Shown one piece after another: positions 4,015-13,175 of a stretch of DNA of 33,360 bases. The stretch is from assembly GCA_017482945.1 (NCBI GenBank), contig JAFUMF010000006.1, forward strand, positions 1-33,360, read 5' to 3'. The stretch is from Lachnospiraceae bacterium (lineage in GTDB: Bacteria > Bacillota > Clostridia > Lachnospirales > Lachnospiraceae). Each line of letters opens with the position of its first letter. Within the stretch, counting starts at the first letter, position 1. Both the position numbers and the translations under genes were made by a program. The notes below the pieces were generated by a model that had not been told where the DNA came from, did not search any database, and was given only the letters and a program-made list of their open reading frames with translations.

Positions 4015-6313
4015 ATGAGGGAAAAACAGAAACTGATTAATTATGTAGCAGGGATGACGACGTTGATCGTCGCCCTGCTAATCGTTATTGTAGTGTTCGA
4101 TACGAAAAATGTGGGTGTTTCCAGGGCCGTAGCGGCGAAAACGGTGGCACTTACCATGGCCTCAAAAGATGAGGTCCTCGCAGGTGCACCGGAGGAATCC
4201 TATTTCGCGGCGGAACTGCAGAACGAATGGTACGCAAAGTACATGGACTATTTATATGAGATCGGATATTTGGATCCGGAGACTTGTCCGGCAACGGAGG
4301 AGGCAGCGCTTTCTTCTGTTACCTACGGAGAACTTTCCGGCTGGATCCGTGCGGTCTCAGGGGAAAATAATGAGACGCTTTCGGTGTATCTGGTCGAGGC
4401 GGATTCAAAAAAAAGCGGCGAAGGCTGTGGACAGGGCAGAGTTCTGGGCGTTTTACGATGCGTTTCTTCCTGTGGCAGACCCGGATGGCAATGTGAAAGA
4501 CCTGGAGACCGATCTTTACGGAACGCCGGATAATGTGGAAACTGCTGCTGCATGGACGGCTTATACAAAAGACGGCAAGTATATGTTCGAGGGACTTTCG
4601 CTGGATTCTTATATTGACCGCACCGTGCATGTTCTGGTTCGCGGGAATGATATTTTGAAGGTGGTAGAAGAGGTCTCTGATGAGATTGTCTATGAAAATG
4701 CCTGGATTTCTGGTTATTCCGGGAATACGGTTACCGTTTTTATTGGAAATGTTCAGAAGAAGTTCCCTGTGAAAGGCGTATTGAAGGATGAGAGCGAGAT
4801 TTCCGGCCAGATTGGTGATCTATACCTGGAAGGCGGAAAGCCGAAGCGGCTGGTTCTCAAAAAAGATACGATTACCGGCACCGTTCTCGCGGTGAGAGAA
4901 CATGAGATCGAGATCGAAGGCTACGGAAATGTGCCGATGGCTGAGAATTTCAAGATTTACCGGACCTACGGCGTGCTTCGCGAGCAGCAGAAGAAAGACA
5001 TTCTCGTAGGTTACAATATGCAGAAATTTGTTGTGGCCGGCGGCGAGATCTGTGCGGCTCTTACAACGGAAAAGCCAGAAATTGACAACATCCGTGTACT
5101 TCTTATGAGTACGAATTTTGAATCGTTATTCCACCCGGAGATTATTCTTTCTTGTGATGTGGCGGCTGTTTTGGAGTACGGTACAGGCAGTGAGAAAAAG
5201 ACCCAGTCCGTGGCAGCCGGAGAGACGATTTCCATTGATCTGGATGATTCACGCCTGGAAGAGGGACGTCTTGTGTTCCGCTCTGTAGAAGAGGGCGGCT
5301 TGATCTCTGTGGGAAATATTGAACGCGGCCAGGGCATGCCGGTATATCCGGGACATATGGAGATCACGAAGGAATCGGATGGTCTGCTTTTGCTGAATGA
5401 GGTGGAGCTTGAGGAGTACTTAAAGCGCGTGGTACCAAGCGAAATGCCGCAGAGCTATGAGTTGGAGGCTTTAAAGGCGCAGGCGATCTGTGCGAGAACG
5501 TATGCATGGCGCCAGATTCAGAACAATACATATTTTGAGTACGGTGCCCATGTGGATGACAGCACCAACTTCCAGGTCTATAACAACACGGCGACCTATG
5601 ATTCGACGGATTCTGCAGTCAATGAGACCTTTGGTCAGGTCCTCGCGTACAACGACGTGCCGATCGAGGCGTTCTATTATTCCACATCCTGTGGTCACGG
5701 AACAGACGGAACGGTCTGGGGCGGCGAGGCTTCTGCGACCCCGTATCTGCATGCACTTTCCATCGATTCCAGAGGAAAGACCATGGACCTGACATCCAAC
5801 GAGGCTTTTGAGCAATTTATAAAAAATCCATCTTCGGAGGCTTACGAGTCTGAGTATACCATGTACCGCTGGAGCGTGAAGACCAACAGCACGATTCTTT
5901 CTGAGAAAATCGGAGGCGTGGGACGGATCACCGGCCTTGCAGTCACAGAACGCGGCCCAGGCGGACTTGCGAAGAATCTGAAAGTGGTTGGAACAGAAGG
6001 GTCTAAGAGCTTTAATGGTCAGAGCAAGGTTCGAAGCATTCTCGGAAATGTTTCTCTGGAGTTTACAAGAAACGACGGTTCGACCATCAGTGGATGGGAG
6101 ACTCTGCCGAGCGGATTTATTTACATTGAAAACAACGGGATCGATCCTGATAATGTGACATGGTTCACGATTTACGGCGGCGGCTACGGCCATGGCGTAG
6201 GCATGAGCCAGAACGGCGCTCAGGGAATGGCAAAGAGCGGAAAGAGCTGCATGGATGTGCTCCGGTTCTTCTACCAGGGATGCGAGATCGTTGATATTGG
6301 GGAAGTATCATAA
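4015..6313 (+). pseudogene. SpoIID/LytB-domain protein, frameshifted at an A8 tract
   Basis: A gene for a roughly 765-residue exported protein, split over two frames. The start at 4015 has GAGG at 4007-4010, right after the upstream stop. An N-terminal membrane anchor (residues about 10-27) follows. The first frame runs to 4533, but its sequence after residue about 133 is out of register. The second frame takes over at the eight As of 4407-4414: removing one A joins VEADSKK to AAKAVDRAEFWAFYDAFL. The C-terminal part (corrected residues about 446-760) is a SpoIID/LytB domain with RVVPSEMP, ALKAQAICARTYAW, FYYSTSCGHGTDGTVW and GGGYGHGVGMSQNGAQGMA. SpoIID is a lytic transglycosylase of sporulation; the long N-terminal part suggests a vegetative paralogue. 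Slippage, real mutation or assembly error could each explain the break. The ATG at 4169 begins out-of-frame sequence and is not a real start. Confidence 0.82.
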
Positions 6314-6323
6314 TAAAACATAC

Positions 6324-6352
6324 AAAGAGTCTGCTTCGTGCAGGCTCTTTTG
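6324..6352 (+). terminator. Intrinsic terminator after the SpoIID/LytB gene
   Basis: AAAGAGTCTGC (6324-6334) pairs with GCAGGCTCTTT (6340-6350), one G-T wobble, followed by Ts. Confidence 0.8.
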
Positions 6353-6370
6353 CATTTATAAAACAAAAAT

Positions 6371-6399
6371 CCGGCCTGAAGCAGTCTGCACCAGGCCGG
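6371..6399. repeat. Inverted repeat in the DUF401 upstream region
   Basis: CCGGCCTG (6371-6378) and CAGGCCGG (6392-6399) form an 8-bp perfect stem with a 13-base loop. The plus strand continues with As and the minus strand with a T run, so it would terminate minus-strand transcripts. No minus-strand gene lies to its right. A GGGGAGGA follows at about 6407-6414 without a convincing start codon. Confidence 0.5.
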
Positions 6400-6507
6400 A
6401 CAAAAAGGGGAGGATAAGTATTAATCTTTCTCTTTCGTGATACTACTATTATGACCGCATTTTCCATGATTATTCAGATTTCATAAAATATTTATGATCG
6501 CATTCAA

Positions 6508-6552
6508 AATTCCCTGAACTTGCTTGTCCGATACAGGGAATTCATATATAAT
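6508..6552 (+). promoter_or_regulatory. DUF401 promoter with overlapping dyad
   Basis: TTGTCC (6524-6529) and TATAAT (6547-6552) are spaced by 17 bases. A perfect 9-bp inverted repeat, AATTCCCTG (6508-6516) and CAGGGAATT (6534-6542), flanks the -35 and reaches into the spacer. That is a sensible place for a repressor operator; it could also form a hairpin in read-through RNA. Confidence 0.6.
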
Positions 6553-6589
6553 AAATATGATATAGTTTAAAAAGAAAAGGGGTATCATC

Positions 6590-7843
6590 GTGCGACAGTT
6601 TGCAGGCATTATTATTTCGTTTATTCTTCTTCTGGTCATGTTAAAAGGGTATCCGAAGATTTCCGGCGGTAAGAAAGCTCCGCTGGGTCCGGTTCTCTTT
6701 CTGACTGGTCTGATCATGGCAGTGATCGCCGGACTTCCGATCGGAACCATGACCGGTTCCTTTATCAATATTTTTACAACGTTCTCCACGCTCCAGACAC
6801 TGATCGTCGTGGTGGAGATCGGGATCCTAGGCAATATTTTAAAGCAGTATGGAATTTTAGAGAATATTGTAAAAGCGCTTGAGAAGCTGGTTCCAAGCAA
6901 GAAAGCGCTGGTCATGCTTATGCCTGGCATTATGGGACTTCTTCCGGTACCTGGCGGCGCGTTTTTATCTGCCCCGTTCGTTGATTCGATCGGTACAGAC
7001 CTGAAAATGACCGGAGACCAGAAGACAGCGGTAAACCTTTACTTCCGCCATTTCTCCATGTTCGCACTTCCTTATAATACGACCATGCTGACGATCGGAT
7101 CGATCCTTCCGGCTGTGAATATTTATCTGGTCATTGGACTTTGTTTCCCGTTTGTGGTGGTACTGCTTGGCGGCGCGTATCTGTTCTATGTGAAATCTGC
7201 GCCTGGCATGAAAGTAGAAGGTGCCGGACTCAGCATGGGCGCGTTAAAAGACGTGCTCTGGTATTTGTCCCCGATTTACATGGCGCTTGTGTTTAACACC
7301 GCATTTGGACTCGATATGTACATCTCGATTTTGATCTGCATCCTGCTTACTTTCTTCATGATCGGAAAAGATAAGAGTAAGTTTTTAGAGACCATCGTAA
7401 AAGGAATCGGAATCGATACACTTCTGATGCTTGTGGGCGTCTATTACATGCAGAATATCGTTAAAAGCCTGGATGTGGTCATGGCCAGTGTGGGAAGTGT
7501 TCTTGTGGGACAGTCAATTATCGGTTTCATGATCATCGTGCCGATCGTAGGTCTTGCATTCGGTCTGTCCACAGGACTCAGCCTGGTTCCGATGGGCATT
7601 CTGCTCCCGTTCGTGGCAGCGATGGATCTTCCGGCGATGACACAGACGGTTTATGCAGTTTATATTTTAATCTGGTGTTTCCTGGGATATTATTTTTCCC
7701 CGTTCCATCTTTGCCAGCTGCTGTCCATCAAATATATGGGCTGTGAGACAAAGAGTGTATACCGCCAGCATGTGAAGATGATGCCGTTCCTCTCTCTGGC
7801 GGGCGTAGTGATTTTCCTTGTATACAACATGTTGTTCTTATAG
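6590..7843 (+). CDS. DUF401 family integral membrane protein
   Basis: A 417-residue protein made almost entirely of hydrophobic segments, about ten to eleven membrane spans. It resembles the DUF401 family, related to ion-transporter-superfamily permeases. Conserved-looking features are the MPGIMGLLPVPGGAFLSAPF loop (about 119-138), the polar FRHFSMFALPYNTT stretch, and FGLSTGLSLVPMG in the second half. These paired polar, proline-rich loops resemble re-entrant substrate loops of ion-coupled carriers; transport is inference and the substrate is unknown. The start is GTG at 6590, with AAAAGG about 10 bases upstream. The gene stands alone between terminators. Confidence 0.8.
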   Translation: MRQFAGIIISFILLLVMLKGYPKISGGKKAPLGPVLFLTGLIMAVIAGLPIGTMTGSFINIFTTFSTLQTLIVVVEIGILGNILKQYGILENIVKALEKLVPSKKALVMLMPGIMGLLPVPGGAFLSAPFVDSIGTDLKMTGDQKTAVNLYFRHFSMFALPYNTTMLTIGSILPAVNIYLVIGLCFPFVVVLLGGAYLFYVKSAPGMKVEGAGLSMGALKDVLWYLSPIYMALVFNTAFGLDMYISILICILLTFFMIGKDKSKFLETIVKGIGIDTLLMLVGVYYMQNIVKSLDVVMASVGSVLVGQSIIGFMIIVPIVGLAFGLSTGLSLVPMGILLPFVAAMDLPAMTQTVYAVYILIWCFLGYYFSPFHLCQLLSIKYMGCETKSVYRQHVKMMPFLSLAGVVIFLVYNMLFL

Positions 7844-7857
7844 AATCAAGAGATAAC

Positions 7858-7927
7858 CGGCATGGCGGGCCAGTATGCACATGCCGCGCCCGAGGTAGTT
7901 TGGCTGCTTAGGCAGCCGCGCGGCAGC
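7858..7927. repeat. GC-rich hairpin cluster between DUF401 and PHP genes
   Basis: Three consecutive dyads: CGGCATG (7858-7864) with CATGCCG (7880-7886); GGCTGC (7902-7907), loop TTAG, GCAGCC (7912-7917); and the palindrome GCCGCGCGGC (7915-7924). The block is much richer in GC than its surroundings and has no coding potential. It may be a degenerate repetitive extragenic element. Confidence 0.5.
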
Positions 7928-7930
7928 GCG

Positions 7931-7957
7931 AGAATGTGCCAAGGCACATTCTTTGTT
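7931..7957 (+). terminator. Intrinsic terminator downstream of the DUF401 gene
   Basis: AGAATGTGCC (7931-7940) pairs perfectly with GGCACATTCT (7943-7952), followed by TTGTT. The T tract is modest. Confidence 0.6.
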
Positions 7958-7980
7958 CTAACAGAAAAGGGGCGGATGAG

Positions 7981-8964
7981 ATGAAAAATTATAATGGATT
8001 CAAACATAACGGCAGATGGTATAGAGGAAATCTCCACAGCCACTCTACACTTTCCGACGGAAAATGGACGCCGGAGCGGATGGTGGAGGAGTACCGGAAA
8101 CAGGGATATCAGTTCCTTGCAATCTCCGACCATGATTTTTATACAGACCTCAGAGCGCAGTTCGACTGCGAGGAGTTTATTACGATTCCGGCATTCGAGT
8201 GCAGTGCGATCTTGTACTGTGACCATGGAACAAAAGACCGGTATAAGGTCCATCACCTCCATGGAATTTTAGGCACAAGCGAAATGCAGAAGCAGGCGAA
8301 ACTGCCGTTGTACCGGCATATGGAGACCATTGAACGGAGAAAGTTCTATCGGACATGGCCGGCGGCTGAGGTCGTACAGGAGATGACGGATATGCTGAAG
8401 GACCATGGCATGGTGGTTACATACAATCATCCGATCTGGAGCCGTGTGACCGGGGACGACTTTATGGACACGGATGGACTGGATGCGCTGGAGATCTACA
8501 ACCATGGATGTGTGCTAGAGTCGGCGACCGGTGTTGCTGCGGTGCAATGGGATGAGATGCTCCGGGCCGGAAAACGGATCAATGGATTTGCCAGCGATGA
8601 CAATCATAATGTGCTGGAGGACAGTTTTGGCGGCTGGATCGTTGTGCAGGCACCGGAACTGAGCCATGATGCGATCATACAGAATTTCCTGGATGGAAAT
8701 TATTATTCGTCCACCGGGCCGGAGATCGAAGACTGGGGGATCAAGGACGGAAAAGCATGGATTTCCTGCTCTCATGTCAACCAGATCCGGTTCGTTGCGG
8801 GAAATATCATCAACGACGGCTTTGTAGTCCTTGGTGAGAAGTTTGAGGACGATCTGACCTATGGCGAGTATGTGCTTAAGGGGCATGAAGCTTATGTCCG
8901 GGTGGAAGTGGTCGATAAATTCGGGCGCACCGCATGGACCAATCCGATTTATATCGAGTGGTAG
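7981..8964 (+). CDS. PHP-domain metal-dependent phosphoesterase
   Basis: A 327-residue cytoplasmic protein of the PHP (polymerase and histidinol phosphatase) superfamily. The first metal motif is NLHSHSTLSDG with His19 and His21. The second is AISDHD (Asp50, His51, Asp52). Later pieces are an acidic PAFECS (about 65-70), TYNHP in the middle, and GFASDDNH for the final metal ligands. The C-terminal 70 residues (about 255-327) form a beta-rich tail often found in stand-alone PHP proteins. The family hydrolyses phosphate esters using two or three metal ions; the substrate is not predictable. The start at 7981 is chosen because GGGG lies about 10 bases upstream; the longer frame from 7936 would begin within the terminator hairpin. 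Confidence 0.85.
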   Translation: MKNYNGFKHNGRWYRGNLHSHSTLSDGKWTPERMVEEYRKQGYQFLAISDHDFYTDLRAQFDCEEFITIPAFECSAILYCDHGTKDRYKVHHLHGILGTSEMQKQAKLPLYRHMETIERRKFYRTWPAAEVVQEMTDMLKDHGMVVTYNHPIWSRVTGDDFMDTDGLDALEIYNHGCVLESATGVAAVQWDEMLRAGKRINGFASDDNHNVLEDSFGGWIVVQAPELSHDAIIQNFLDGNYYSSTGPEIEDWGIKDGKAWISCSHVNQIRFVAGNIINDGFVVLGEKFEDDLTYGEYVLKGHEAYVRVEVVDKFGRTAWTNPIYIEW

Positions 8965-8974
8965 AGATATGAGC

Positions 8975-9003
8975 TTGATTGCGGACGCATGAGGGCTTAT
9001 ACT
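8975..9003 (+). promoter_or_regulatory. Promoter of the fused molybdoenzyme gene
   Basis: TTGATT (8975-8980) and TATACT (8998-9003) with a 17-base spacer. The transcript would start near 9010, giving a leader of about 83 bases. Confidence 0.6.
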
Positions 9004-9033
9004 ATATAGAAGTAGTTTATTTGGGTTCACAAA

Positions 9034-9071
9034 AAGGTCCGGTGGATCCAAGAAGAAAGACCAGGGACCTT
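9034..9071 (+). promoter_or_regulatory. Leader inverted repeat before the molybdoenzyme
   Basis: AAGGTCC (9034-9040) is complementary to GGACCTT (9065-9071). The stem would end 10 bases before the GGAGGA ribosome site and could influence translation. It is too small for a molybdenum-cofactor riboswitch. Confidence 0.4.
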
Positions 9072-9092
9072 GCAGTAATAGGAGGAACAAAA

Positions 9093-12000
9093 ATGTCACG
9101 TTGGGGAGTAGTGTTTGATCAGGCAAAGTGTATTGGATGTAATGCCTGTCAGGTGGCTTGTAAAGATTATCACAGCCTGGAATCGGGAAAGAATTTCCGT
9201 CGGGCAGAGACAGTCGAGTATGAGGAAGATGGAGTAAAGAAATATGCCCATTTTTCTGGTTCCTGCCATCACTGTGTGGATGCGGCTTGTGTGAAGGCAT
9301 GTGCATTTGGCGCGATGAAGGTGACAGACGAGGGAATTGTTGTTGTGGATGAGGCGCTGTGCCGCGGATGTGGTGCCTGTGAGCGGGCATGTCAGTACGG
9401 AGCGGTGTATGTGAGTGCAAGACGTTATGTGGCGATGAAATGCGATACTTGTATGGCGCGCCGCCAGAGCGGGGAACAGCCGGTCTGTGTGGAAGCATGC
9501 CGTACCTTTGCGCTGGAATTTAAAGAATTAGGGGAAGAAAAGGAAGAGAATCCGGTTGCGGCGATGATTGGCGAGACATTCTGTGTGAATCTGAAAGCAG
9601 ATGCGAAAAAATCTGCGGCTTGCGGAAATTCTGTGGCGGCTGGAACTGGAAAAGCCGGAGTGGCAGCAGAGGTTTCGGAGGCGAAAGAGGCCGGATGGGA
9701 TGATCCGGCGAAGATGGAAGAAGAGCTTGCAAAAAATCTGAAACAGCTGGCAGCATTCTTTGAGACCCGTGAGCAGGCCATGGAAATCTGCCGTGGATTT
9801 GCGGATTGGGAGAAGAAATCTGAGCGTGAGTGGAAGCTGGAATATGATTTCTTATTCCGCGGAACTGATGCAGACTGGCTGATCCCGCTCTGGGCATCAG
9901 TGGCATTTGGGGAGCAGGTCCTGCTTGACCGGACGACTCTGAATGTGATCCATAATTATCATAAATATGGCTATGAGCCGGTGCGGATGGAAGGAAACCC
10001 GCCGGATTATATCGGCGAGCAGCTTCTGTTTGCGGCGAAGCTGATGGAAATCGGAAATAAAAATGCTGTATGCAACTTTATCAAGACCTACACGAAGCCA
10101 ACGGCTGAGATGGTCTGTGAACATGTAAAAAAACGCGGCACCTTTGAGGGCATTATCATGTATCTGGACTGGATGCTGGAGGTGCTTGCAAAGTGCGTGA
10201 AGATTGCCGATCAGGAAGAGAAGGAGCAGGAGTCTGGCGAAGAAAAGACTCTGGGCGCACCGATCCCGAACGAGGAAGCAAGAGTGATCAACTCTGCAGG
10301 CATCAACAACTGTGGCGGCATGTGCATCGTGCGTCCGGAGGTGCAGGACGGCTGTATGTTGAGCATCGGAAGCGATTGCAGCAGCAATGATCCGCATATT
10401 CGTGCCTGCGTGCGAGGACGAGGCTATAGAAAGACCTTCTTAAGTCCTGGAAGACTGCGCTATCCGATGAAACGAATCGGCGAGCGCGGCAGCGGAAAAT
10501 TTGAGAGGATCACCTGGGACGAGGCGGCGGACCTGATCGCGAAAGAGTGGAGAAGAATCCGCGACCAGTACGGCCCGAGCTCCAGCTATGTGAATTATGC
10601 GACCGGCGTGACAGGAATCATGCGTCCGGGTACGCTGGTAAGACGCCTGCTTTCCATGGACGGCGGTTATCTGGAGTATTTCAACTCCTACAGCTCCGCA
10701 TGTTCCGGTTACATTTCTCCTTATATTTTCGGAACAAGAGCTTGCGGCAACAGCCCGCAGGATATGTTAAATACAAAGCTTCTGGTGCTCTGGGGAGATA
10801 ATCCGGTGGAGACAATTTTCGGAACCGAGCGAAATCATTATCTGGCTCTCGCTAAACAGCGCGGCATCCGTATCATTGTTGTGGATCCGCGACTGAGCAA
10901 CACTGCAGTGGCTTATGCGGACCAGTGGATCGGAATCCGTCCGACGACCGATGCGGCATTGGCAGATGCTATGGCCTATGTGATCTGGTCCGAGGGACTC
11001 CATAACCAGCATTTCATGGATACATACTGTGTGGGCTTTGACGAGGAACATATGCCGGAGGGCGTGCCGGCTGGCGAGAGTTACCATACTTACCTGTTCG
11101 GCAAAAAGGACGGAATCCCGAAAACACCGGAGTGGGCCGCTGAAATTACCGGCATCGATGCCGAGACCATCCGTACCTTTGCAAGAGAGTACGCAAAAGC
11201 AAAACCTGCCTGCATCATCATGGGCCTGGGTCCGCAGCGTCATGGAAACGGCGAGCAGACAACGAAGGGCATCAGCGCACTGACCTGTCTCACTGGCAAT
11301 GTGGGCATTTCCGGCGGCGGTGCGGCTGCAAACGGCGATATTGTGGAGCATGAAAAAATCACGCTGTACAATAATACGGTGAAAAATCCGTATCCTGGAA
11401 AAATCCCGGTATTCTTATGGACCAAGGCCATTGAGCATGGAACCGAGATGACTCCGCGCGGAGACCGCCTCACAGGTGTGGAAAAGCTGGACAGCAACCT
11501 GCGCCTGATGTTCAACCTGGCAGGAAATATCCTGATCAACCAGCACTCCGACATTAATGATTCCATAAGAATTCTGAAGGATGATACTAAGTGCCAGTTT
11601 GTCCTTTGCTCCGACGTGTTCATGACTCCGAGTGCGAGGTTTGCCGATGTGCTTCTCCCGGGAACATCCGTGTTCGAGGGCAATAATATCGTTCCGCCGT
11701 GGCGCGGCAACAACTATGTGCTCCGGAACAATAAGGTGATCGAGCCGTTATTCGGATGCCGGTTCGAGTGGGAGTGGTTAAAGGAAGTGGCCGACCGACT
11801 TGGCTATTACGAAGAATTTATTGATGGAAAGCCGGACATGGAAGACTGGCTGATCGAAAATTATAATGTTTTAAGAGAGAAAGAACCGGAGCTTCCGGAT
11901 TATGAGACCTTCTGTGAGCGCGGCGGCTGGCAGTACAAGGAGCCGATCACATATATTGCTTTTGAAAAGGAAATTGCCGATCCGGAGCATCATCCGTTTG

Positions 12001-12497
12001 CAACACCGTCCGGAAAAATCGAGATTTTCTCTAAGGATCTGTATGACTTTGAGCAGGAGGACATCCCGGCGATCCCGCGTTATCTGCCGTGCCCGGAGGG
12101 ACCGGAAGATCCGATCCGTGAGACTTATCCGCTTCAGCTCATTGGCTGGCACACCCGCAGAAGATGCCATTCCATTCATGATAACAACGAGTGGCAGGAT
12201 GAGGTGGAGATGCCTGGACTCTGGATCCACCCGGAGGATGCGAAGGCGCGGGGAATTTCCGATGGAGACATGGTGGAGACTTACAATGACCGCGGCTGTG
12301 TGAAGATTCCGGCAGTGATCACCGAGCGGATCATCCGTGGAGTCGTTGCCATGACACAGGGCGGCTGGTACACACCGGACAAGAACGGTGTGGATATCCG
12401 CGGTTCCATCAACGTGCTGACATCTGCAAAACATGCATCCCCGCTCGCGAAAGGAAATCCGCAGCATACCAATCTGGTGGAAGTGAAAAAAGCTTAG
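9093..12497 (+). CDS. Fused DmsB-TorD-DmsA molybdopterin oxidoreductase
   Basis: An 1134-residue protein with three parts that are normally separate genes. Residues 1-160 are a DmsB-like ferredoxin with four cysteine quartets: 13/16/19/23, 58/61/66/70, 90/93/96/100 and 117/120/132/136, so four [4Fe-4S] clusters are expected. An Ala-rich linker leads to a TorD-like chaperone (about 203-375) with EYDFLFRG and NPPDYIGEQLLF (302-313). Residues about 398-1134 are a DmsA-type catalytic subunit: NCGGMC (406-411), ACVRGRG with Cys439, YPMKRIGERG, Tyr533-Ser534-Ser535 in the region of the family's Mo-ligand serine, and a C-terminal SPLAKGNPQHTNLVEV. The first cysteine of the cluster motif is Gly403. 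No Tat signal or membrane segment is seen, so it should be cytoplasmic. Start is fixed by GGAGGA at 9081-9086. Substrate unknown; S- or N-oxide reduction is the family's usual role. Confidence 0.9.
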   Translation: MSRWGVVFDQAKCIGCNACQVACKDYHSLESGKNFRRAETVEYEEDGVKKYAHFSGSCHHCVDAACVKACAFGAMKVTDEGIVVVDEALCRGCGACERACQYGAVYVSARRYVAMKCDTCMARRQSGEQPVCVEACRTFALEFKELGEEKEENPVAAMIGETFCVNLKADAKKSAACGNSVAAGTGKAGVAAEVSEAKEAGWDDPAKMEEELAKNLKQLAAFFETREQAMEICRGFADWEKKSEREWKLEYDFLFRGTDADWLIPLWASVAFGEQVLLDRTTLNVIHNYHKYGYEPVRMEGNPPDYIGEQLLFAAKLMEIGNKNAVCNFIKTYTKPTAEMVCEHVKKRGTFEGIIMYLDWMLEVLAKCVKIADQEEKEQESGEEKTLGAPIPNEEARVINSAGINNCGGMCIVRPEVQDGCMLSIGSDCSSNDPHIRACVRGRGYRKTFLSPGRLRYPMKRIGERGSGKFERITWDEAADLIAKEWRRIRDQYGPSSSYVNYATGVTGIMRPGTLVRRLLSMDGGYLEYFNSYSSACSGYISPYIFGTRACGNSPQDMLNTKLLVLWGDNPVETIFGTERNHYLALAKQRGIRIIVVDPRLSNTAVAYADQWIGIRPTTDAALADAMAYVIWSEGLHNQHFMDTYCVGFDEEHMPEGVPAGESYHTYLFGKKDGIPKTPEWAAEITGIDAETIRTFAREYAKAKPACIIMGLGPQRHGNGEQTTKGISALTCLTGNVGISGGGAAANGDIVEHEKITLYNNTVKNPYPGKIPVFLWTKAIEHGTEMTPRGDRLTGVEKLDSNLRLMFNLAGNILINQHSDINDSIRILKDDTKCQFVLCSDVFMTPSARFADVLLPGTSVFEGNNIVPPWRGNNYVLRNNKVIEPLFGCRFEWEWLKEVADRLGYYEEFIDGKPDMEDWLIENYNVLREKEPELPDYETFCERGGWQYKEPITYIAFEKEIADPEHHPFATPSGKIEIFSKDLYDFEQEDIPAIPRYLPCPEGPEDPIRETYPLQLIGWHTRRRCHSIHDNNEWQDEVEMPGLWIHPEDAKARGISDGDMVETYNDRGCVKIPAVITERIIRGVVAMTQGGWYTPDKNGVDIRGSINVLTSAKHASPLAKGNPQHTNLVEVKKA

Positions 12498-12514
12498 GGG
12501 TTCGAGAATATAAG

Positions 12515-12556
12515 AAAACCTCCGGCGTGAGACATATCATGCGCCGGAGGTTTTTT
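12515..12556. terminator. Bidirectional terminator between molybdoenzyme and mobA
   Basis: A 13-bp perfect stem: AAAACCTCCGGCG (12515-12527) with CGCCGGAGGTTTT (12542-12554), loop of 14 bases. Six Ts follow on the plus strand, and TTTTCTTAT follows on the minus strand. The last codons and stop of mobA lie inside it. Confidence 0.9.
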
Positions 12557-13142
12557 CTGTAATGGTTTTTATTTTTTCATAGTCATCACGGGTGTTGATG
12601 TTGGAGCACTGGATGCTCATGTCAGATGGAATCTGCAGATAGTCCACGTTCATCTGTTTTAACGCCATCATGACTTTGTTTTGGTCGGCCAGAAGCTGTT
12701 TTTCCAGTACCGGGAGTGCTGATTTTGTGTAAATGCCGCAGAGCGGATGGATCCGTTCATCGGGCGTAACTGCGACCACGGCGTCCAAAGCCGTTCCATT
12801 TTCCAGGTTCTCAGTGAACGCACAACAAAACAACTTCGCTAAGGAATACTGAATAAACGGCATGTCACAAGTGACAAAAAACAGTGCATCGGCCTCACAT
12901 GCGGAGAGGGCCGCATGGATACCTCCAAGGGGACCATGGTCCGGATACTGATCTGGAATGATCTTCCAGTCAATGTCCGGAAGATTGCTGTTATTGCCCC
13001 GGGCGATGATCCGCTCTTCAAACGCGGACAATTCTCCCGCGATCCGTTCTATAAATTTTTGTCCATCAAGAGCCAGCAGAGCTTTATCAGTTCCCATTCT
13101 GGAACTTTTTCCGCCTGCTAGAATCGCACATCCAAATTTCAT
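12537..13142 (-). CDS. mobA: Molybdenum cofactor guanylyltransferase MobA
   Basis: A 201-residue nucleotidyltransferase that attaches GMP from GTP to molybdopterin, making the guanine-dinucleotide cofactor used by DMSO-reductase-family enzymes. The N-terminal LAGGKSSRMGTDKALL (8-23) is the family's nucleotide-binding signature. IPDQYPDHGPLGGIHAAL (about 62-79) and the metal-binding TCDMPFI follow. IHPLCGIY in the second half is typical of MobA. Length fits the family. It converges on the fused molybdoenzyme, a client that would need its product. The ribosome site is weak (AAAGG about 13 bases upstream). The final residues Thr-Ser-Gly-Ala are encoded by an arm of the shared terminator. Confidence 0.92.
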   Translation of the reverse strand: MKFGCAILAGGKSSRMGTDKALLALDGQKFIERIAGELSAFEERIIARGNNSNLPDIDWKIIPDQYPDHGPLGGIHAALSACEADALFFVTCDMPFIQYSLAKLFCCAFTENLENGTALDAVVAVTPDERIHPLCGIYTKSALPVLEKQLLADQNKVMMALKQMNVDYLQIPSDMSIQCSNINTRDDYEKIKTITEKTSGA

Positions 13143-13175
13143 CGTATCAATTCTGCCTTTAAAGTATTTTCTGGT

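Follow-up and report, generated by a model that had tools for sequence, protein, structure and literature searches.

What does a maturation chaperone do when it is part of the very polypeptide that it would mature? Two jobs are ascribed to chaperones of the TorD type, the guarding of signal peptides of the twin-arginine translocation (Tat) pathway and the loading of cofactor, and these have been hard to separate. The question is raised by a gene at positions 9093-12497 (forward strand) of a 33,360-nucleotide stretch of contig JAFUMF010000006.1 from a Lachnospiraceae bacterium, hereafter the window. In this gene, one stop-free frame of 1134 amino acids joins a DmsB-like ferredoxin, a TorD/DmsD-like chaperone and a DmsA-like catalytic subunit. 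The analysis firmly established the architecture of a genuine, conserved three-domain protein, which probably acts as a cytosolic, Tat-independent S/N-oxide reductase (for substrates like dimethyl sulfoxide (DMSO) or methionine sulfoxide) and whose built-in TorD domain would load the cofactor in cis.

In what follows, G numbers denote genomes and L numbers loci. G000 is the genome of the window and G001 and G002 are the other two analyzed from its genus, the three being 93.6, 93 and 72% complete. Relatives are the 80 best loci from a scan over 85k species genomes, classified by hidden Markov models of the ferredoxin, TorD and catalytic domains. The fusion protein of G002 is 72% identical to the window protein over residues 1-1133 and uninterrupted throughout, and that of G001 is 69% identical up to the point where its contig ends. 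The single 1134-codon frame described in an earlier reading of the letters (hereafter the sequence-only reading) was thereby confirmed in all three species, and no split at the domain junctions was seen in the genus. The frame extends 5' of its ATG to a TTG (1172 amino acids); the start codon that is conserved is the ATG at 9093, and an AGGAGG ribosome-binding site (9080-9085, forward strand), also found in G002, lies 7 bases 5' of it. Ratios of nonsynonymous to synonymous substitution (dN/dS, NG86 method) between G001 and G002, approximate since dS is near 1, were 0.09 for the ferredoxin, 0.12 for TorD and 0.05 for the catalytic part, which indicates that purifying selection is acting on all three domains. 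Public records matching the fusion come from Lachnospiraceae metagenome-assembled genomes (MAGs) of water buffalo cecum and dairy cattle colon. A scan of phage families merely returned the DmsA and ferredoxin names again.

The identity of the middle part is central to the question. Residues 205-385 (9705-10247, forward strand), which the sequence-only reading had called TorD-like, have the TorD/DmsD fold. The Pfam family PF02613 (Nitrate_red_del/TorD) matched residues 208-324 with 36.1 bits, above its gathering score of 22.2, and a model of residues 199-396 alone was all-helical (predicted local distance difference test (pLDDT) 93.6, about 92 over the domain; predicted template modeling score (pTM) 0.90). 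In comparisons with VIA-align, the top ten matches of this model all belonged to the maturation-chaperone family, ahead of every unrelated chain. The best was Escherichia coli DmsD (3efp; Z 15.7, 170 residues, root-mean-square deviation 2.9; 3cw0, Z 15.5), followed by YcdY, TtrD and NarJ; the Foldseek ranking agreed, with weak E-values. A short motif also distinguishes the groups, being mostly EPxDH in separate TorDs, QPxDH in the TorD-DmsA proteins of Synergistaceae and Clostridium-like genomes, and NPxDY or NPxDF in the core fused clade.

The catalytic domain (residues about 394-1134; 10275-12494, forward strand) is of the DmsA type that binds a molybdenum or tungsten bis(pyranopterin guanine dinucleotide) (bisPGD) cofactor. 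It scored 884.3 bits with TIGR02166 (dmsA_ynfE), against a curated NCBIfam cut-off of 777.7, and 398.5 bits with TIGR00509 (bisC_fam), far under the cut-off of 1017.55. The domain search on the translated protein found the Pfam families Molybdopterin (454-901) and Molydop_binding (1014-1126) along with PF02613 and PF13247. In the full-length model (pLDDT 81, pTM 0.77), confidence is high for the TorD and catalytic domains; the catalytic fold matches TorA, MtsZ and DMSO reductase. A candidate molybdenum ligand is S534 (10692-10694, forward strand), invariant in the alignment and aligned with Ser147 of 1dms, which we take to be the molybdenum ligand of Rhodobacter DMSO reductase. The claim of a complete DmsA-type C-terminus thus holds for the full catalytic domain, but the signal peptide is absent and the FS0 cluster region (residues 407-439; 10311-10409, forward strand) has an incomplete four-cysteine motif. 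C407, C411 and C439 are kept, and the first cysteine is replaced, as it is across the core fused clade. C421, an additional cysteine, is shared by every TorD-fused enzyme in the alignment other than L046, L047 and L135 and is absent from nearly all unfused ones; as a guess, it might substitute for the missing FS0 ligand.

At the N-terminus, residues 1-145 (9093-9527, forward strand) form a DmsB-type ferredoxin domain for four [4Fe-4S] clusters, matched by PF13247 (Fer4_11) at residues 51-145 (5.8e-18) and by TIGR02951 (dmsB) with 123.9 bits, under its curated cut-off of 214.1. The four cysteine quartets noted from the letters (13, 16, 19, 23; 58, 61, 66, 70; 90, 93, 96, 100; 117, 120, 132, 136) are real, in that all 16 cysteines align with those of stand-alone DmsB-type ferredoxins. 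The segment between ferredoxin and TorD (residues 146-204; 9528-9704, forward strand) is variable, with 33-40% identity within the genus (40% for G001 versus G002), and is probably a flexible linker; pLDDT in the full model falls below 50 at residues 127-199. The ferredoxin part of that model is also of low confidence, because too few sequences could be aligned.

Where the enzyme works bears directly on what its chaperone can do. No Tat signal precedes the catalytic domain; TorD stands in its place, and the TIGR02166 match begins at model position 40. By sequence, the fusion protein has neither signal peptide nor transmembrane segment, and no stretch of it is strongly hydrophobic (the best mean over 19 residues being 1.38); no DmsC membrane anchor was found among the annotated genes of the window, to which that search was confined. 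A gene of about 1 kb between ferredoxin and TorD-DmsA in relatives was considered as a DmsC candidate and proved to encode a Pyr_redox_2 flavoprotein, and a membrane-anchored DmsABC reading was dropped. No TatC turned up in any of the three genomes of the genus, nor in G059, G263 and G343, the last two of which are rated 100% complete. Five of 31 fusion genomes carry TatC (four of the five being Synergistaceae), compared with all eight genomes having a Tat-signal DmsA (Fisher 2e-5, without correction for relatedness among the genomes). G000 and each of 17 fusion genomes have the fused TorD as their single PF02613 protein, with that of L107 under the threshold. From the absence of TatC and the lone PF02613, it follows that the fused enzymes are most likely cytosolic and that their TorD cannot serve export. 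The suggestion of a cis-acting loading and proofreading module is therefore to be divided. Loading is the best-supported role, considering the missing Tat signal and TatC, the single PF02613 and the change from EPxDH to NPxDY; proofreading in the Tat sense fell away in a genome without Tat.

How loading in cis might proceed can be outlined by analogy with the biochemistry of TorD, DmsD and NarJ, from which the steps of binding and loading are taken. TorD also binds TorA at a second site, in the core, and aids bisPGD insertion without a signal peptide (PMC10609526), TorD bridges MobA and apo-TorA (PMC9103625), and NarJ holds its partner enzyme open, first for FS0 and afterwards for the molybdenum cofactor (PMC5123574). 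In the fusion, the TorD domain, tethered at the position of the signal peptide, would bind the apo-catalytic domain at this second, or core, chaperone site, with the covalent tether taking over the recruitment otherwise provided by the signal peptide. Once bound, it would hold the apo-catalytic domain open and deliver FS0 and Mo-bisPGD in cis, and after loading it would remain as a tethered domain. The ferredoxin, on its flexible linker, could then dock at FS0 and relay electrons to the molybdenum site from a soluble donor, which in many relatives may be the adjacent NADH-ferredoxin-reductase-like flavoprotein. The chaperone likely stays attached for the life of the protein, as the sequence-only reading had proposed, with cleavage after maturation a possibility.

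Some observations weigh against this reading. PF02613 was found in none of 12 DmsA-only genomes, and sister genomes of this kind mostly lack TatC too; TorD is therefore apparently dispensable for the maturation of such a cytosolic DmsA. Five fusion genomes do carry TatC. In addition, none of the three genomes of the genus yielded MoaA (PF06463), MoaC or MoeA_N, which places the source of the cofactor in doubt.

That DmsA-only relatives live without TorD would also suit a TorD that was fused after the loss of Tat and persists as a structural relic or spacer, merely joining ferredoxin and catalytic domain. TorD is the least conserved domain, at 57-58% identity versus 69-79% for the ferredoxin and catalytic parts. 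Nevertheless, its dN/dS of 0.12-0.22 across the genus comparisons (those with the window having dS near saturation) speaks for constraint, its fold is intact, and G257, W267, S269, P303 and D305 are invariant in the alignment. In most fused relatives the chain includes no ferredoxin, and there is thus nothing to space. The fixed spacer offered as a second role by the sequence-only reading is disfavored for this reason and because the linker is variable and modeled with low confidence. Altogether, we regard a relic or spacer as unlikely.

Another explanation is that TorD serves other molybdoenzymes in trans, the fusion being a way to co-produce chaperone and enzyme. It would fit the single PF02613 of the genome and a second MopB-like protein on contig 65 of G000 (about 10302-13151), where a 701-amino-acid frame lies beside a DmsB-like ferredoxin and a flavoprotein, an arrangement also seen on contig 55 of G001. 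However, this second MopB protein is a distant match (about 30%, along part of the domain), a TorD-type chaperone is in most cases dedicated to a single enzyme (PMC9103625), and a tether favors action in cis, so that service in trans appears distinctly improbable.

The missing cofactor genes deserve separate consideration. MoaC was also not found in the genomes of the close relatives L049 and L059, and is present in L050 and most other relatives. Assembly gaps could explain single absences and would explain all of them together less easily. If the lack of MoaA, MoaC and MoeA is real, the genus must import the cofactor or a precursor, and molybdopterin auxotrophy alongside a retained bisPGD-type enzyme is possible judging from gene content. 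A more elaborate version, which we consider rather doubtful, is that the genus scavenges cofactor or precursors from its neighbors, that TorD and MobA catch and load them, and that the DUF401 permease described below perhaps takes part in uptake. The MobA-like molybdenum cofactor guanylyltransferase in question is the convergent neighbor of the fusion gene (12537-13142, reverse strand), with PF12804 above the cut-off and the MobA models below their NCBIfam cut-offs. A link between the MobA and fusion genes was considered and set aside, as MobA adjoins the fusion in the window and not in G002.

The same absences in three genomes could mean that the enzyme works without molybdopterin, for example by chemistry at FS0 such as a preprint claims for Salmonella DmsA paralogs (PMC12636705), with TorD merely helping to insert FS0. 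This is very unlikely, since the serine ligand of molybdenum is retained, the window has a MobA gene next to the fusion, one FS0 cysteine is gone and most fused relatives carry MoaC. An assembly or binning artefact has next to no chance, because, although the genome is in 250 contigs, three separate genomes of different species have this fusion in common (69-72% identity), with a surrounding gene order that largely matches between the window and G002.

The distribution of the fusion can be followed in the wider family. TorD and catalytic domain share one frame at 28 of the 80 loci, in Clostridia, Treponema and Synergistaceae, and the ferredoxin is included in just the two records of the window genus, to which the three-way form is specific among these relatives. 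The survey for the same domain order does not bear out the proposal of a new architecture standing by itself: the decisive fusion, that of TorD to DmsA, belongs to a widespread family, and the added ferredoxin alone is peculiar to this genus. In known DMSO-reductase operons TorD/DmsD is a separate protein, as had been stated, and no description of TorD fusions, DmsA-MobA fusions or molybdenum cofactor salvage was found in open-licence papers; the TorD-DmsA family is apparently undescribed so far.

The family arranges its electron-transfer partners in several ways. Ferredoxin, flavoprotein and TorD-DmsA may be separate genes in that order (e.g., L050, L055, L063); a DmsB-like ferredoxin may be fused to a Pyr_redox_2 flavoprotein beside TorD-DmsA (L052, L056, L057); or ferredoxin may precede (L053, L059) or follow (L046, L047, L135) TorD-DmsA. 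L049, a Solobacterium MAG, encodes Pyr_redox_2 flavoprotein, TorD and DmsA in one 1356-amino-acid frame (5480-9547) with a separate ferredoxin gene before it, and other loci (e.g., L068, L084, Synergistaceae) have no nearby ferredoxin. The flavoprotein of the relatives is Pyr_redox_2, nearest to NADH reductases of the NirB, HcaD and NorW type. Phylogenetically, the three-way proteins group in a single clade (support of 97 in the SH-like approximate likelihood ratio test) nested in a TorD-fused clade of 25 rows (support 100). TorD fusions also occur elsewhere, in Synergistaceae, two Clostridium-like genomes, Acetitomaculum and L135, and a single origin is therefore not established.

Further fusions were seen amongst more distant enzymes. 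In a TorD-free sister clade, a Hungatella MAG (L080, 4986-8231) joins DmsA, MobA and MobB in one 1082-amino-acid frame; other Hungatella MAGs have a DmsA-MobB fusion (L081) or a MobA-MobB gene directly downstream of DmsA (L086, L091), and L082 is grouped with them. This is a striking parallel, with cofactor-making enzymes fused to a cofactor-using enzyme. In L035 (4895-8182, 1096 amino acids) and L036 (6010-9006, 999 amino acids), ferredoxin is fused directly to distant MopB enzymes with no TorD match. L037 (contig 94 of G096) holds at least five tandem DmsA-like genes in 14 kb, with twin-arginine and lipobox-like N-termini where these were read.

The neighborhood provides some information about transport and substrate. 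A DUF401/TIGR00529-like permease (PF04165; 6590-7843, forward strand) is the constant upstream neighbor of the fusion in three species, lying directly upstream in the two sister species (L048, L051), and is a candidate transport partner. A CehA/McbA-type PHP metallohydrolase gene (7936-8964) stands between permease and fusion in the window alone, and a 6S RNA (RF00013, 69 bits) lies at 2498-2676. L046 and L047 have genes for a MetQ-type lipoprotein and MetN next to TorD-DmsA, as L076 does next to a DmsA-only gene, a hint that the substrate at these loci is methionine sulfoxide. For the window enzyme, a small sulfoxide is the best guess.

With Tat absent and the chaperone kept, covalently and one to one, the fusion would be a natural system for the loading step alone. 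Whether the non-exported BisC uses any chaperone is unclear according to a review (PMC10609526). The fusion could help to trap a chaperone-enzyme complex for structural work and to produce molybdoenzymes that are soluble and self-maturing. The reductases of the wider family are cytosolic and modular and come mostly from anaerobes of the gut and rumen; they have sister enzymes that are fused to MobA and MobB.

Compared with known systems, the window protein resembles DmsABC and YnfEFGH in its catalytic score, four ferredoxin cysteine quartets and the position of the serine ligand, and differs from them in lacking a Tat signal and the first FS0 cysteine, in its extra C421 and in carrying ferredoxin and chaperone in one chain. 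BisC is likewise non-exported and of the same superfamily, and the catalytic domain closely resembles MtsZ and TorA in fold; BisC and MtsZ enzymes, however, are monomeric, without ferredoxin or fused chaperone. The TorD domain shares with TorD, DmsD and NarJ the PF02613 score, the all-helical DmsD fold and the EY..LF.G and P.D motifs. Those chaperones are separate polypeptides that leave the enzyme, whereas the fused domain is in one frame with it in three species, has DY in place of the DH of separate TorDs, and sits where a signal peptide would be in a genome without TatC. Closest are the two-domain TorD-DmsA fusions such as that of Acetitomaculum ruminis DSM 5522 (contig NZ_FOJY01000008), in which TorD, as in the window, directly precedes a signal-less DmsA, in genomes mostly without Tat, but the ferredoxin is a gene of its own or is joined to the flavoprotein, unlike the three-way chain of the window.

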